From Cytophagaceae bacterium (lineage in GTDB: Bacteria > Bacteroidota > Bacteroidia > Cytophagales > Spirosomataceae): a stretch of 35,014 nt of DNA. The translations under genes and the position numbers were made by a program. Under the pieces are notes generated by a model, which did not search any database, was not told the DNA's origin, and was given only the letters and a program-made list of their open reading frames with translations. The stretch is from contig CANFWR010000012.1 of NCBI GenBank assembly GCA_947450865.1, positions 1-35,014 of the forward strand. The letters are read 5' to 3'. Below are positions 7,055-14,533 of this stretch, in pieces. Numbering within the stretch: the first letter of the stretch is position 1; each line of letters opens with the position of its first letter.

Positions 7055-7699
7055 ATGTTGATGCTATCACACCTAAATTATGATTTACCGGTGTTGCGTT
7101 TGACAGATTCAGTCGCAAAAGCGCTGAAGACACTCCGCACCCAAGGGGTAAATGCGTTAGCGGTGGTAGAAAATAAGGATTTCATTGGACTTGTTTCCTC
7201 TGAAATCTTAAGTCAGGCTTTATCGCCAGAACAATCCCTTACAGATCTGAGAACCCATTTTTCCACTTTCCGCATGGAAGAAGAGGAGGATGTATTAGCC
7301 AGCTTGCCTTGGTTTGATGAACCTAACTTAGATGTGATTGCGATCACTAATGCAGAAGGATTGTTTAGAGGTTATTTGACCAAAAATGAAGTAGGAAACC
7401 TCCTCTTAAATTCAGGGGTAGAAAATAAAAACGGTGGCATTATCCGTATTCCTTTTCAGGCTTCAAGAGATAGTTTGAGTACGATTATACGTATCATCGA
7501 GGAAGAAAATGGATTTATTGTACGCAGTTTTTTCCAGGAACCGAATGTGGTTCTGCAGGTTCAAACGGAGACCTTTGGCAAGATTATTTCCAACCTAGAA
7601 AGACACGGCATTTTTATAGAAAAAGCCTTTGTTTTCGGCGAGCAATTAGAAGTAGATCAAGATCGTTTTGATCATTTAATGCGTTTTATTGACCTATAA
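7055..7699 (+). CDS. CBS-domain protein, probable regulatory
   Basis: A 214-residue soluble protein. Residues ~10-60 (SVAKALKTLRTQGVNALAVV, then FIGLVSS) and ~70-120 (DVIAITNAEGLFRGYLT) form a tandem CBS pair, the usual adenine-nucleotide-sensing module. The C-terminal ~80 residues (from RIPFQASRDSLSTIIRIIEE) look like an ACT-like regulatory fold. No catalytic domain is visible. It starts 1 nt after the hydrolase stop, and its own stop overlaps the NAD kinase start as TAATG, which implies coupled translation with nadK. A role in sensing ATP, AMP or NAD to modulate a partner is a reasonable inference from the neighbour. A second ATG lies at 7061-7063, so the true start may be two codons later. 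Confidence 0.8.
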   Translation: MLMLSHLNYDLPVLRLTDSVAKALKTLRTQGVNALAVVENKDFIGLVSSEILSQALSPEQSLTDLRTHFSTFRMEEEEDVLASLPWFDEPNLDVIAITNAEGLFRGYLTKNEVGNLLLNSGVENKNGGIIRIPFQASRDSLSTIIRIIEEENGFIVRSFFQEPNVVLQVQTETFGKIISNLERHGIFIEKAFVFGEQLEVDQDRFDHLMRFIDL

Positions 7700-8580
7700 T
7701 GAGTGTACAATTAGCCATTCACGGAAAAACCTTTTCGGCTGAAACGAAGCCTTTAATGGAGAAAATGTGGGCGGATATATGTGCCAAAAACTGCCAACCT
7801 ATCCTCTCCGATTTCTTCAAAAATCACCTCCTGGAACACGGTTTCTCGGTGGCGGAGGTGCCCAGCTATTCCACAGAAAAAGGATTAGAGTCTGCGGATA
7901 TGGCCTGGAGTATTGGTGGCGATGGAACACTCTTAGAAACATTGACTCAAATAGGTGCAAAAGAAATCCCCATCCTAGGTATTAATACTGGCCGATTGGG
8001 CTTTTTAGCCACCTTATCACCCCCAGAAATAAGCACAGCTTTAGACACCGTTTTACAAGGAAATTACCGCATCGAAAATAGAAGCTTGGTTTCCGTTGAG
8101 TCCGAGGTTGACTTTTTTGATGGCAAAGGTTTTGGCCTAAATGAAGTGGGTATTATGAAGACTGACACATCTTCGATGATTACCATCAAAGCTTTTGTAG
8201 ACGGCAATTATTTGAACTCCTATTGGGCTGACGGGCTTATCGTTTCCACTGCTACCGGATCCACAGGTTATTCCTTAGCGGTCGGAGGTCCTTTAGTTAT
8301 CCCAAGTTCCGACATATTCATCATCGCACCCATGAGCCCGCACAATTTAAATGTGCGTCCGCTCCTCGTTTCTAGTTCAGCAGTTTTAACTTTTGAGGTG
8401 AGTTCAAGAAGCAAAAACTTCCTTATTTCGCTAGATTCGCGCTCTAAAGTCATCGATAGTCATTTCAAAATCGAAGTAAAAAAAGCACCATTTTCAGCGA
8501 AATTGATCAAAATTCCAGGGGATGATTTCTTGCAAACGTTGCGGAGTAAGTTGAATTGGGGGTTAGATGTCAGAAATTAA
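7699..8580 (+). CDS. nadK: NAD kinase
   Basis: A 293-residue NAD+ kinase, which makes NADP+ from NAD+ with ATP or polyphosphate. It has the invariant SIGGDGTLLET motif (GGDGT at 73-77), GINTGRLGFLA (~94-104), the NEVGI segment, and the glycine-rich TGSTGYSLAVGGP loop (~192-204), followed by the conserved PMSPHNLNVRPL stretch. Length is normal for the family. The ATG shares one base with the stop codon of the CBS gene. The gene ends in TAA at 8578-8580, and the very next base begins a long hairpin (8581-8630), so the mRNA 3' end is structured. It converges with mutS across 133 nt. Confidence 0.97.
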   Translation: MSVQLAIHGKTFSAETKPLMEKMWADICAKNCQPILSDFFKNHLLEHGFSVAEVPSYSTEKGLESADMAWSIGGDGTLLETLTQIGAKEIPILGINTGRLGFLATLSPPEISTALDTVLQGNYRIENRSLVSVESEVDFFDGKGFGLNEVGIMKTDTSSMITIKAFVDGNYLNSYWADGLIVSTATGSTGYSLAVGGPLVIPSSDIFIIAPMSPHNLNVRPLLVSSSAVLTFEVSSRSKNFLISLDSRSKVIDSHFKIEVKKAPFSAKLIKIPGDDFLQTLRSKLNWGLDVRN

Positions 8581-8630
8581 TTTAATTCATTCAAAAACGT
8601 GCTGCGCAATGTTTTTCGAATGAATTAAAT
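8581..8630 (+). other. Hairpin H1 after nadK with a conserved 12-nt loop
   Basis: This starts on the base after the nadK stop. Outer arms TTTAATTCATTC (8581-8592) and GAATGAATTAAA (8618-8629) pair perfectly, with A8580-T8630 adding one more pair. After a single bulged C (8617) the inner arms AAAAAC (8593-8598) and GTTTTT (8611-8616) pair. The loop is GTGCTGCGCAAT (8599-8610), which contains the self-complementary hexamer TGCGCA. No T-run follows, so it is not a standard intrinsic terminator. The loop is identical, in mutS sense orientation, to that of the hairpin after mutS. Confidence 0.85.
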
Positions 8631-8665
8631 CAATTACTCTTATGGCGATTTAGAGTTGGTTTAGA

Positions 8666-8712
8666 TTTCTAATTCACAAAATTATTGCGCAGCACAATTT
8701 TAGAATTAGAAA
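8666..8712 (-). other. Hairpin H2 after mutS with the same 12-nt loop
   Basis: On the plus strand, outer arms TTTCTAATTC (8666-8675) and GAATTAGAAA (8703-8712) and inner arms AAAATT (8678-8683) and AATTTT (8696-8701) pair perfectly, with a 2/1-nt internal loop. The loop ATTGCGCAGCAC (8684-8695) is the exact reverse complement of the H1 loop. Read in the mutS direction the loop is therefore the same GTGCTGCGCAAT. The hairpin begins one base after the mutS stop codon (8714-8716). The stem sequence is unrelated to that of H1, so the loop is kept while the stems vary by matched changes. Confidence 0.85.
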
Positions 8713-8713
8713 A

Positions 8714-11311
8714 CTAAAGCAATCGCTTTAATTCATTCAACTTCAACAACGCCTCAATCGGCGAAAGTGAATTCACATCCAATTCCTTTAACTGATCCTC
8801 AATTTTTTGGAGGCCTTCCGGAATTTCAGCGCCAAATAGACTCATCTGGTAGTTTGCCTTCGGCATCTCTTTCAGCTTATCAATGTTGTCTTCTAACACG
8901 TGATCTTTCTCCAGGTTTTGGAGAATTTCGTGTGCACGTAAAACGAGTGACGTAGGCATTCCGGCTAATTGAGCTACGTGAATACCAAAACTATGGGCAC
9001 TTCCGCCTGGCAATAATTTGCGCAAGAAGATGATTTTATTTCCCACTTCTTTCACAGAAACGTGGAAGTTTTGGATGCGCGGGAAGTCTTGCGTTAATTC
9101 GTTTAATTCGTGATAGTGAGTGGCAAATAGGGTTTTGGCCTTATAAGATGGGTGATTATGCAAGTGTTCTGCGATCGCCCAAGCCATGGAAACGCCATCA
9201 TACGTCGATGTCCCACGACCAATTTCATCCAATAAAACGAGAGAGCGGGACGATAAATTATTCAAAATCGCGGCCGTTTCCGTCATCTCGACCATGAAGG
9301 TAGATTCGCCTTTGGACAAGTTATCAGATGCCCCCACCCTTGTGAACACCTTGTCCACTAAACCTAAATTTGCGGACTCGGCCGGAACATAGGATCCCAT
9401 TTGGGCGAGCAAGACGATGAGCGCTGTTTGACGCAATAGAGCAGATTTACCGGCCATATTGGGACCAGTAATCATCATGATTTGCTGCGTCTTATCATCT
9501 AGATAGATGTCGTTAGGGACATAATTTTCGCCGGCGGGTAACTGCTTTTCGATCACCGGGTGGCGACCACCCTTGATATCAATGATTTCTGTTTCGTTTA
9601 ACGCCGGACGAACGTAGTTATTTTTCTTTGCTACTGTAGCAAATGACGCTAACACATCGAGCGTCGCAATTCCGAGTGCATTCTGTTGGATCTGAGTTAA
9701 ATATCCTAATGCGGTCTCCACTAATTCTTGGAATAGACGGAATTCAATAACGGATATTTTATCCTCCGCGCTCAGAATTTTCTCTTCGTAAATCTTTAAT
9801 TCTTCGGTGATATAACGCTCCGCATTCACTAAGGTTTGCTTCCGAATCCACTCGGGTGGCACGCGGTCTTTGTGGGCATTTGTTACTTCTAAATAATAGC
9901 CAAAAACCTTATTATAGGAGACCTTTAATGAGGTGATTCCGGTGCGTTCGATTTCACGTTTTTGGATATCGGCTAAGAAGTTCTTTCCAGAACTAGAAAG
10001 CCCGTGTAATTCATCTAATTCGGCTAAATAGCCACTTTTAATCATTCCTCCTTGGTGCATTAACACGGGCGGATCATCGCGTAAAATCGTATCGATTTTT
10101 TCTACTAAATCCAAGCAAGTATCTAGGCTATTTGCAAGACCTGAAAGGCTTGTCGATGTAGAAGCTGACAACAAGGATTTAATCTCTGGAATCTGCTGTA
10201 ATGCTTTCTTCAAGGCATTTAATTCCCGCGGATTAATGCGGCCTGCGGCGACTTTAGAAATCATCCGTTCCACATCTCCAATCGGCTTTAATAATTCAGA
10301 AATCAGATCTAATAAACTCGAAGAGGCAAGCAAACCAGCCACACCTTCTTGACGTTGCTCGATAGTTTTTAATTCTTTTAAGGGCAATACAAGCCATTTG
10401 CGAAGTAAACGACCACCCATCGCCGTCAACGTTTGGTCAATGAGTGCAATTAATGGAACTCCACCCTCCTGTGTAGGATGAATTAGTTCCAGATTGCGAA
10501 TGGTAAAACGATCTAACCACACGTATTTATCTTCTTCAATGCGTTGAATTGAAGAAATATGACCGATCGCGCGATGCTCTGTTTCGGCTAAATAATGTAA
10601 AATGACCCCAGCAGAAATAATGCCGAGGGGACTATTTTCTATGCCAAAACCCTTCAGGTTTTGAGTCTTAAAATGCTGTGTTAAAAGCGGGTATGTGAAT
10701 TCGTGGGTAAAAATCCACTCCTCCATCGTAAAGCTGTGAAATTGCTCCCCGAATGCATCGATAAAGGCGTTACGGTGTTTTTTAGGATACAGAATTTCAG
10801 CTGGCAAGAAACTTTGGACTAATTTCTGAATATAGGCCAAAGGACCTTGAGAGCACATAAATTCACCTGTCGAAATATCGAGTAGGGCAATTCCGTAGGT
10901 CAAAGATTTTTCCTCTAAAGAAATCGCCGCCACGTAATTATTGCGCTTATTATCTAATACTTGATCATTAAAAGAAACTCCCGGCGTGACCAATTCCGTC
11001 ACTCCGCGCTTGACAATTCCCTTCACGGTTGCCGGATCTTCTAGTTGATCACAAATGGCTACTCGTTCACCTGCACGAACTAATTTAGGTAAATACGTAT
11101 CTAGAGAATGGTGTGGAAAACCCGCTAATTCTGCATCGGCGTTCCCATTATTGCGGCGCGTCAAAACAATCCCTAAAATTTTAGAGGCTTTCACTGCATC
11201 TTGGCCAAAGGTCTCGTAAAAGTCCCCTACCCGGAACAATAAAATAGCCCCCGGGTATTTCGCCTTGATTTGATTAAACTGCCTTGAAAGTGGAGTTTCC
11301 CCTTTTTTCAA
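8714..11311 (-). CDS. mutS: DNA mismatch repair protein MutS
   Basis: Full-length MutS, which recognises mismatches and recruits MutL. The N-terminal RVGDFYETFG carries the Phe-x-Glu mismatch-contact motif. The C-terminal ATPase has Walker A TGPNMAGKSALLRQ, Walker B LVLLDEIGRGTSTYDG and the FATHYHEL His loop. No ATG or GTG exists before the conserved domain. In-frame TTG codons lie at 11414-11416, 11366-11368 and 11309-11311. I chose 11309-11311 (865 residues, beginning MKKGETPLSRQ), because it gives the normal family N-terminus, follows a GGGGAGGAG stretch, and lies downstream of a -7 box at 11366-11373. The longer forms remain possible and would add up to 35 residues. It is divergent from the GMC gene and convergent with nadK. 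Confidence 0.95.
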   Translation of the reverse strand: MKKGETPLSRQFNQIKAKYPGAILLFRVGDFYETFGQDAVKASKILGIVLTRRNNGNADAELAGFPHHSLDTYLPKLVRAGERVAICDQLEDPATVKGIVKRGVTELVTPGVSFNDQVLDNKRNNYVAAISLEEKSLTYGIALLDISTGEFMCSQGPLAYIQKLVQSFLPAEILYPKKHRNAFIDAFGEQFHSFTMEEWIFTHEFTYPLLTQHFKTQNLKGFGIENSPLGIISAGVILHYLAETEHRAIGHISSIQRIEEDKYVWLDRFTIRNLELIHPTQEGGVPLIALIDQTLTAMGGRLLRKWLVLPLKELKTIEQRQEGVAGLLASSSLLDLISELLKPIGDVERMISKVAAGRINPRELNALKKALQQIPEIKSLLSASTSTSLSGLANSLDTCLDLVEKIDTILRDDPPVLMHQGGMIKSGYLAELDELHGLSSSGKNFLADIQKREIERTGITSLKVSYNKVFGYYLEVTNAHKDRVPPEWIRKQTLVNAERYITEELKIYEEKILSAEDKISVIEFRLFQELVETALGYLTQIQQNALGIATLDVLASFATVAKKNNYVRPALNETEIIDIKGGRHPVIEKQLPAGENYVPNDIYLDDKTQQIMMITGPNMAGKSALLRQTALIVLLAQMGSYVPAESANLGLVDKVFTRVGASDNLSKGESTFMVEMTETAAILNNLSSRSLVLLDEIGRGTSTYDGVSMAWAIAEHLHNHPSYKAKTLFATHYHELNELTQDFPRIQNFHVSVKEVGNKIIFLRKLLPGGSAHSFGIHVAQLAGMPTSLVLRAHEILQNLEKDHVLEDNIDKLKEMPKANYQMSLFGAEIPEGLQKIEDQLKELDVNSLSPIEALLKLNELKRLL
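8715..8730 (-). other. Small hairpin over the mutS stop codon
   Basis: TAAAGC (8715-8720) and GCTTTA (8725-8730) form a 6-bp stem with the loop AATC, covering the last codons and stop codon of mutS. It is immediately followed, in the mutS direction, by hairpin H2. It may simply reflect codon choice, so its significance is uncertain. Confidence 0.4.
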
Positions 11312-11365
11312 TGGCTCCTCCCCGTTGTCTGCTTTCCGTGCCAAATATTTCTGATCTAATAATGA

Positions 11366-11373
11366 CAAAAATA
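11366..11373 (-). promoter_or_regulatory. Putative mutS -7 box
   Basis: The minus strand reads TATTTTTG, matching TAnnTTTG. It overlaps the in-frame TTG at 11366-11368. If real, transcription starts near 11359, and only the TTG at 11309-11311 can initiate MutS. No TTG sits at the -33 distance. Confidence 0.4.
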
Positions 11374-11385
11374 AACCAATTTTTC

Positions 11386-11393
11386 TATTTTTG
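11386..11393 (+). promoter_or_regulatory. Putative -7 box for the GMC operon
   Basis: TATTTTTG, an exact TAnnTTTG match, 24 nt before the ATG at 11418. Together with the opposite-strand copy at 11366-11373 it forms a divergent promoter pair whose -7 boxes are separated by only 12 nt. Confidence 0.45.
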
Positions 11394-11417
11394 ATTTCTC
11401 TAAACCAGATTAACAAA

Positions 11418-13176: not shown

Positions 13177-13800
13177 ATGAAAAGAAGAGACTATTTAAAA
13201 AATATGGGCTTAAGTTCACTGGGCTTAGCCGTTTTCAATCCCGACGAAAAAGCGATTGAGAATTTAAACGTAGGAAATGTACCAGTCAAAAGACCAAACG
13301 GTCGTACGCAAGCTGAAGCAGAAATGGAAGCCAAATTACAGGCGGAAGTATTCTTAAATGCACACGAATTAGCGACGATCACGGTGTTATCCGACATCAT
13401 CATTCCAGCTGACAAGAAATCAGGTAGCGCCTCTCAATCAGGCGTAACCGCCTTCATCGAGTTTATTGTGAAGGATAAGCCGGAGTTTAAAACACCGATG
13501 CGTGGTGGTTTACGTTGGTTAGATGTAGAATCGAACAAGCGTTTCTCAAAAAACTTCACCGATTTAACACCCGCTCAGCGAATTAACATCGTGGATGATA
13601 TCGCTTATCCAGGCAAAACGCCTAAGCATTTATCGCAAGGGGAATCTTTTTTCACCTTGATGCGTAATTTAACGGCTACCGGATTCTATACTTCTAAAAT
13701 CGGCATCGCGGATTTAGATTACAAAGGGAATACGCCTAATCAATGGGCTGGAGTTCCAGACGAAGTTTTAAAACAATATGGTTTAAGTTATGACGCCTAG
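13177..13800 (+). CDS. Gluconate 2-dehydrogenase subunit 3 family protein
   Basis: A 207-residue small subunit of a GMC-type dehydrogenase. The N-terminus MKRRDYLKNMGLSSLGLA carries a twin-arginine motif followed by a short hydrophobic stretch, so the complex is probably exported folded with its FAD subunit through Tat. The central region, from NAHELATITVLSDIIIPADK to GVTAFIEFIVKDKP, is the family signature. The start is the ATG at 13177, 1 nt after the GMC stop; a longer reading frame inside the GMC gene is a shadow. The last 11 bases overlap pgeF. No cytochrome c subunit follows, unlike the three-component gluconate dehydrogenases. Confidence 0.88.
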   Translation: MKRRDYLKNMGLSSLGLAVFNPDEKAIENLNVGNVPVKRPNGRTQAEAEMEAKLQAEVFLNAHELATITVLSDIIIPADKKSGSASQSGVTAFIEFIVKDKPEFKTPMRGGLRWLDVESNKRFSKNFTDLTPAQRINIVDDIAYPGKTPKHLSQGESFFTLMRNLTATGFYTSKIGIADLDYKGNTPNQWAGVPDEVLKQYGLSYDA

Positions 13801-14533
13801 TCGTTTCTGTAAACCCACTATTTTTCAATCTATTCCAGGCCTCGTGGCGGGTGTTAGCACTCGCCACGGTGGCTTAAGTAAAGCTCCTTATACCTCTTTA
13901 AATGTAGGTATTCACACAGATGATGACCCAGCGGCCATCGAACAAAATCTTTCGCTTTTTTGTGCAGATTTAGGCGTTTCTCCTGCTGATTTAGCCCGCT
14001 CCTACCAAGTGCATGGCGATAAAATTTGGGTGACGGGAAGAGCCGGATATCAATCTGGATTCGATGCGATGATTTCCGTCCAACCCGGTGTTTATGCCGG
14101 AGTAGGAATCGCTGATTGCACGCCCATTTTACTAGCTGACCCCGTTACACGTGTTTGTGCTGCTATTCACGCGGGATGGAAAGGAACGGTTGCGCAAATT
14201 GTTCATAAAACCGCCAAACGCATGATTGAGAACCGAGGTTCTAATCCTGCGGACATCCTGGCTTACATTGGCCCCTGCATCAGTTTAGCCCATTTTGAGG
14301 TGGGAGATGAAGTGGCTTCTCAGTTTGACGAAGCCTTTAAAAAACGTACAGGAGCTAAATGGCACGTCGATTTGAAAGCGGCGAATGCGGCTCAATTACA
14401 AGCCTTAGGTATTCAACAAATAGAAATTGATCCAGCCTGCACAGTAGAAAACAATGCGGACTTCTTTTCACACAGAACAGAAAAGGGGGTGACGGGCAGA
14501 ATGCTGGCCTTAATTGGTTTTCAGGTTGCGTAG
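13790..14533 (+). CDS. pgeF: Peptidoglycan editing factor PgeF / purine nucleoside phosphorylase (YfiH family)
   Basis: A 247-residue multicopper-fold protein of the YfiH/laccase-domain family. Conserved blocks are GVSTRHGGLSKAPYTSLNVG near the N-terminus, QVHGDKIW, GVGIADCTPILLADP with the active-site Cys, AAIHAGWKGTVAQIVHKT, AYIGPCIS and FFSHR near the C-terminus; the His and Cys residues line the zinc site. Members have purine nucleoside phosphorylase/adenosine deaminase activity, and in E. coli the protein removes mis-incorporated L-Ser from peptidoglycan precursors. The start overlaps the upstream subunit gene by 11 nt. The 3' end overlaps the convergent CarboxypepD_reg gene by 24 nt. 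Confidence 0.92.
   Translation: MTPSRFCKPTIFQSIPGLVAGVSTRHGGLSKAPYTSLNVGIHTDDDPAAIEQNLSLFCADLGVSPADLARSYQVHGDKIWVTGRAGYQSGFDAMISVQPGVYAGVGIADCTPILLADPVTRVCAAIHAGWKGTVAQIVHKTAKRMIENRGSNPADILAYIGPCISLAHFEVGDEVASQFDEAFKKRTGAKWHVDLKAANAAQLQALGIQQIEIDPACTVENNADFFSHRTEKGVTGRMLALIGFQVA

Follow-up and report, generated by a model that had tools for sequence, protein, structure and literature searches.

The window (the whole 35,014-nt stretch of DNA that was analysed) contains the convergent genes nadK and mutS, each of which is followed by a hairpin in its own sense:

7699..8580, plus strand: nadK, the gene 5' of H1; open reading frame with the Pfam domains NAD_kinase and NAD_kinase_C; stop codon at 8578-8580
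8572..8638, plus strand: hairpin H1 (nadK sense); arms 8572-8597 and 8613-8638, complementarity 88%
8594..8615, plus strand: tip of H1, AAAACGTGCTGCGCAATGTTTT
8656..8722, minus strand: hairpin H2 (mutS sense); arms 8656-8680 and 8698-8722, complementarity 84%
8679..8700, minus strand: tip of H2, AAATTGTGCTGCGCAATAATTT
8714..11416, minus strand: mutS, the gene 5' of H2; open reading frame with five MutS Pfam domains; stop codon at 8714-8716

The open reading frames and their Pfam domains bear out the gene identities given in an earlier note on this DNA, and the 12-mer that it had reported as common to both hairpins is present exactly at 8599-8610 (plus strand) and 8684-8695 (minus strand), without a third exact copy in the window. 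Folded each in the sense of its own gene and compared with dinucleotide shuffles, H1 and H2 reached z-scores of -5.8 and -7.3 (0 of 200 shuffles folded as well as H1 or H2), and a covariance model matched them at 8574-8635 (70.6 bits) and 8659-8720 (73 bits), respectively. Two structural details had to be revised: the 12-mer, previously described as an unpaired 12-nt loop, is actually folded (G.U, U-A, G-C and C-G pairs, a 3-nt loop and one bulged A), and the stems, previously taken to start past the stop codons, pair into the stop and the last codons of both genes, the arm matching 5 of 6 codon bases in H1 and 5 of 6 in H2. Between positions 8400 and 8900 we found neither a terminator-like site with a T-run (in agreement with the earlier description of both hairpins as lacking one) nor the combination of a G+C-rich stem and a directly following U-tract that typifies intrinsic terminators. 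We also observed that the end of mutS is repeated, on the same strand and over 14 nt (TTTAATTCATTCAA), in the left arm of H1 (8581-8594 vs 8727-8740); the facing gene may have served as the template of this arm, or the repeat may have arisen by chance.

Within the 2.38-Mb host genome the 12-mer occurs in 10 exact copies (as compared to 0 of the reversed word), one of which lies inside a 465-codon frame (L006) and nine outside long frames (the longest open frame overlapping these nine measures 97 codons). A relaxed word recovered loop variants (TGC, TTC, TAC and TTT, all in the same frame), and the host was found to harbor 13 intact hairpins. The proposal that the two hairpins represent a repeated extragenic element was thus substantiated, since the conserved tip, with unrelated and covarying stems, recurs just 3' of stop codons elsewhere in the genome; a lack of further copies and of conservation, which the note had named as speaking against its own reading, was looked for, and the outcome favours a family. 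The direct and inverted similarity around 8572-8740 might also be taken as the trace of a local accident (e.g. a recent inverted duplication at the nadK-mutS junction), but this explanation is refuted by the 21 model matches in the host genome and by the presence of the family in nine further genomes, and we grant it practically no probability.

A first covariance model, built from the 13 host hairpins, produced matches in 10 of 38 Aquirufa genomes (11-21 each) and none in the other 28. A second model (R2), built from 64 copies, retrieved the same ten genomes (Aquirufa antheringensis and close relatives; 12-23 matches each, 21 in the host) and 0 matches in the remaining 28 of the 38; the match numbers slightly exceed those of hairpins, as some palindromes were matched a second time, more weakly, on the reverse strand. 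Of 200 genomes sampled from the taxonomic family and searched with stricter filters, 8 matched, all of them in the Aquirufa antheringensis branch, and of the 57 stretches of GTDB contigs that contain the tip core, 54 stem from Aquirufa antheringensis or MAGs that bear the label Cytophagaceae or Spirosoma fluviale. The hairpin family is limited to one branch of Aquirufa, a freshwater bacterium. A single scan of viral contigs for the exact pattern was negative, the comparison of 12 sources with Rfam 15 at the gathering score yielded a tRNA-Cys (in L004) as the sole pass, and a literature search recognized no earlier description of the tip-hairpin family, which does not prove that none exists. 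Three lone tip matches from beyond this branch (L171, L191 and L199) were discarded, as they do not lie in family-like hairpins. A wider family across the order was likewise rejected: the 12-mer is present in 44 of 148 genomes, yet all 20 non-host places fetched sit in open frames that span 189 codons or more, and the word was there treated as coding. A DNA uptake signal was dismissed as well, the copies in the host (10 exact words and 21 model matches) being far too few in comparison with the 1,000 or more that such signals generally reach.

Read from tip to base, the hairpins consist of a UNY triloop, a closing pair (C-G in 55 rows, U-A in 2) and two further pairs, followed on the 3' side by a bulged A and by a G.U wobble (59 of the 62 rows with letters), below which lies an A/T-rich stretch in which AAA/TTT is nearly invariant and usually one base stands opposite two unpaired ones. 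The dispersed tip is thus a self-complementary sequence of approximately 25 nt (roughly N-AAAWYG-UGC-UNY-GCA-A-U-RWTTT-NN), while the lower stem is unrelated in sequence between loci, and every pair position in it takes several types. In the 64-copy alignment (fitted to the model and inclusive of orthologs), 95.6% of cells are paired, as compared to 65.6% in shuffled and at most 49.5% in slid alignments, the covariation amounts to 0.693 (0.155 shuffled, at most 0.160 slid), and both sides have changed at 12 of 12 lower-stem pairs; further pair types do not rise above the shuffles (47 vs 51.4). Among the 13 aligned host hairpins, both-side changes were recorded at 15 of 22 pairs. Between orthologous copies (16 groups, set by eye), 504 pairs remained the same, 28 were compensated, 4 turned into wobbles, 12 were broken and 18 gained.

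The alignment of orthologous junctions, which the earlier note had called for, recovered the nadK-mutS twin in 6 of 8 readable branch genomes: it is present in the host, G158, G164, G174, G170 and G172, and missing from G148 and G160 (G183, unreadable up to the junction, and G155, without a NadK match, are not among the 8). It is absent from a further 21 junctions of the genus. At rlmD, three of the eight branch genomes read possess the full hairpin, one (G172, L214) is reduced to the left arm with a portion of the tip, and four have none; tandem or broken copies were encountered at guaA (L005, L135) and nuoJ (L256). Within a junction, each tip diverges on its own, as only the host has identical tips among the six genomes with the nadK-mutS twin, and of five other twins read (L003, L116, L130, L138 and L142) only L116 does. 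These observations bear on the suggestion that the nadK and mutS RNAs control each other through a kissing complex of their loops, for which the identical, and hence on one strand complementary, host tips would provide the basis. The tips are identical in just 2 of the 11 twin junctions read (approximately 10 further listed twins lie outside this count), so that complementarity is lost in relatives; the 12 nt are themselves folded, and the loop variants TTC, TAC and TTT no longer contain the palindrome TGCGCA, proposed to mediate loop-loop pairing. We hence regard kissing-loop control as exceedingly improbable. A different palindrome (TGTAGAGACGCGATA...TATCGCGTCTCTACA) was seen where nadK meets mutS, and at rlmD junctions, in genomes that lack the tip family (L062, L065, L066, L072, L073, L074 and L208). 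Moreover, the non-carriers G161, G167, G176 and G163 (L208, L209, L213 and L216) have RlmD proteins 93-96% identical to that of the host and NadK proteins only 75-76% identical, and from this disparity it appears that rlmD may have been exchanged between branches.

The placement of the family was surveyed in 72 copies, which comprise orthologs and twins and are therefore not independent, with genes called simply as open frames of 100 aa or more. A sense gene lies 5' of the copy in 69 of the 72, a sense gene together with a convergent neighbour occurs in 66, and the hairpin centre is located at most 50 nt from the stop codon in 58 of the 69 sense copies. The six rows outside the sense and convergent class are divided between one co-directional copy, two without a called downstream neighbour (L001 and L145) and three, at two loci, that are antisense or without a sense gene (L004/L114 and L113, the latter between two genes of the other strand). 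At the locus shared by L004 (975-1037) and L114 (1466-1528), the hairpin is flanked by a divergent tRNA-Cys on one side and by the end of a facing gene on the other, with no preceding sense gene. Twelve 20-kb background samples of G158 contained, among gene 3' ends with a gap of at least 100 nt, 6 convergent and 16 co-directional ones; the samples lie between known copies and contain none, so that wide convergent junctions are undercounted in them, and the convergent preference of the family goes well beyond this background.

Strong hairpins directly after the stops of convergent genes bring to mind uni- or bidirectional transcription terminators, and this explanation would agree with the U-tract terminator that occupies the place of the host hairpin behind nadK in G160, as well as with the 45 of 72 copies for which no canonical terminator was found downstream. 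On the other hand, H1 and H2 lack a T-run, 27 of the 72 copies are followed by a canonical U-tract terminator between the hairpin and the facing gene, and the U-tract terminator of rlmD is there both with (G158) and without (G160) the hairpin, which makes it improbable that the hairpins are the terminators of their genes. Given these downstream terminators, and the presence of the one at rlmD irrespective of the hairpin, the hairpin looks like an added 3'-UTR element; for the 45 copies without a downstream terminator, a part in termination could be envisaged. Canonical bidirectional terminators of one style (e.g. ACAAAAAAGGGAGC-TTT-GCTCCCTTTTTTGT) were noted 3' of the family hairpin in L030, L031, L134 and L139. 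A second family of small hairpins (ATCCCC/GGGGAT, ATCGCC/GGCGAT or ATCCGC/GCGGAT with a 3-nt loop, often followed by a TCCAACTTT-like sequence) accompanies the tip hairpin on its 3' side in L001, L002, L005, L027, L032, L122, L128 and L135, and its stems also seem to covary. Furthermore, degenerate 7-nt repeats (TAGAGTA-, GGTAATA-, AACTAAG- and GTAAATG-like) fill convergent junctions of the genus and often constitute long inverted repeats around a terminator (L245 11564-11656, L248 9237-9301, L210, L213, L217 and L068); TAACTGA heptamers of other bacteria are treated in PMC4679880.

The arms were compared with the ends of their host genes. In locus L260 of G148, the left arm consists of the last seven codons of the gene, its stop and three further bases, and the right arm (27 nt) is their exact reverse complement, 24 of its 27 nt corresponding to codons plus stop; the empty relative L262 has a similar protein end (FTRFRVVMVLD against FTRFRVILVL) encoded by different bases. 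The arm of L118 matches 15 of 15 codon-plus-stop bases of its own gene and only 11 of 15 of the empty relative L242. L240 and L237 form a clean pair of a filled and an empty site, in which GTGTTAA of the gene end is found again in the right arm; the 15 nt from the stop to the tip are missing from L237, and the left arm of L240 is thus not wholly old host DNA. An anchored alignment of 71 of the 72 rows (L136 was left out, and the degraded L124 and L135 gave arms of 1 and 0) returned a median matched arm of 24 nt, with at least 4 codon bases matched in 45 of the 71 copies (14.9% with right arms swapped between copies), at least 10 in 26 (7.2% with swapped arms) and fewer than 4 in 26. It was substituted for an RNAfold count that broke off at internal loops and was lower (at least 4 codon pairs in 21 of 56 copies). 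In L260 and L118 (against their empty relatives) and in the 45 copies above, the arm thus has the character expected from template switching, i.e. a reverse-complement copy of adjoining host DNA, and the filled and empty relatives agree with a single-event origin, in a comparison of present-day sequences. Three empty sites based on synteny (L238/L235, L255/L246 and L263/L114) were not upheld, and L239/L236 and L108/L241, considered as filled and empty pairs, match in their flanks only (223 and 57 bases). In nuoJ of G148 (L256, approximately 13760-13930) we noticed a complex tandem, in which repeats of a unit of approximately 30 nt lead into a GCGCTTCGCGAT tip with a long right arm, as though more than one round of copying had taken place.

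Arms that continue into host codons are not expected of a hairpin moved as a finished unit, and could be produced by copying of the host strand or by long selection. This weighs against a REP/REPIN or MITE-like element mobilized by a transposase, with which the dispersed palindromes, the twin inverted pairs and the presence or absence of copies between close relatives would otherwise be compatible. In addition, the lower stems of different loci are unrelated, and the Y1 (TnpA-REP) transposase domain (Y1_Tnp, PF01797) was detected in 0 of 10 carriers (some of them incomplete drafts) and in 12 of 28 non-carriers; we consider such an element very improbable. An element made by a reverse transcriptase was rejected separately, since PF00078 (3 of 10 carriers, 2 of 28 non-carriers) does not follow the family.

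We propose instead that the tip of approximately 25 nt would land, by a route that we leave unspecified, close behind a stop codon (nearly always that of a gene with a convergent neighbour), that it would fold back on the coding-sense strand, and that its 3' side would then prime the copying of upstream DNA in an intrastrand template switch. The right arm would thereby become a reverse-complement copy of the 3' end of the host gene, and the mRNA would bear a strong hairpin directly after the stop, 5' of the terminator where one is seen. Matching tips with differing stems would follow, because each arm is copied from its own host gene end. This joint reading (a dispersed tip, fold-back copying of the gene end and a hairpin at the transcript end) is the one we favour, with moderate confidence; within it, the family with its structure and placement, and the agreement of many right arms with codons of their own host gene, are observed, and template switching as the copying step, the arrival of the tip at new loci and the role of the RNA are what we infer.

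The opposite emphasis would be placed on selection: a putative clade-specific RNA-binding protein or nuclease would recognize the tip and bring about 3'-end protection or processing at convergent genes, and selection alone would have made and kept the stems. Such a motif would account for the wobble and the almost invariant AAA/TTT, for the sense bias and for the compensated changes between orthologs, and long-lasting selection could likewise yield matched arms, which counts against fold-back copying, as do the 26 of 71 copies with fewer than 4 matched codon bases and the three copies that are antisense or without a sense gene. However, an exact 27-bp codon match, in a copy absent from a close relative, is hard to reach by point changes, and the hairpin is absent at orthologous junctions of close relatives; we hence deem selection alone rather unlikely, although more probable than the other rivals of fold-back copying. 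The kept G.U and the sense bias are, in turn, not explained by fold-back copying alone, and suggest that the relevant molecule is the transcript, or else the single strand of the same sense. In its putative RNA role, the hairpin would probably protect the transcript from 3'-5' decay or mark where it ends at convergent junctions.

A bolder version of fold-back copying, which we put forward tentatively and with more doubt than belief, is that the tip constitutes a minimal mobile element of approximately 25 nt, which as a self-priming sequence inserts behind stops and builds its stem from the last codons of the host gene. Were this true, the element would leave an inverted copy of its target, and not a direct target-site duplication, and would subsequently have been kept as a transcript-end signal in one branch. 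The family provides a natural set of cases in which a hairpin can be compared with relatives that lack it and each base of an arm can be followed back to coding sequence, so that the question of how long RNA stems originate (by selection or by template switching) can be put to a direct test in a bacterium. Should the tip turn out to be both the seed and a recognized RNA signal, a mutation mechanism would be tied to the emergence of a class of 3'-UTR elements; moreover, strong covariation, the usual proof of a selected RNA structure, may partly stem from copying.

Several known systems share features with this family. REP/REPIN and similar sequences are dispersed extragenic palindromes at gene ends, some of them in inverted pairs. 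The tip hairpins resemble them in all of these respects and differ in that they share only the tip, have apparently host-derived stems and reside in carriers without the Y1 transposase. Hairpins such as the iron-responsive element and those with the tetraloop of yeast Rnt1 carry their recognition features in the tip and a bulge, the stem sequence being free. The tip family shows the same division between conserved tip and bulge and a stem of free sequence; unlike in these hairpins, its stem would often have been copied from the host gene, and any binding factor is here hypothetical. Intrinsic and bidirectional terminators, as characterized in PMC1852404 and PMC5381666, are hairpins after stops, frequently where genes converge, whose stems show compensated changes; our hairpins agree with them in all three traits, and depart from them by the missing U-tract of H1 and H2, the conserved tip and the separate downstream terminator in 27 of 72 copies. 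In Neisseria and Pasteurellaceae, uptake-signal terminators have stems made of the repeat, of which there are approximately 1,000 copies (PMC1852404); a repeated word within gene-end hairpins is common to both systems, whereas in the tip family the repeat is the tip and the matches number 12-23 per carrier genome. A precedent for the copying step is template switching, which, according to Monttinen and Loytynoja 2022 (PMC8794818), creates and mends RNA stems and may be primed by a hairpin loop: when neighbouring DNA is copied as its reverse complement, a perfect stem results in one event, and later switches give rise to multi-base compensated changes. Like the hairpins described there, many members of our family have an arm that matches the reverse complement of the DNA beside it; unlike those events, which are scattered among RNA genes, one dispersed tip would here seed many stems, at gene 3' ends and within one bacterial branch.
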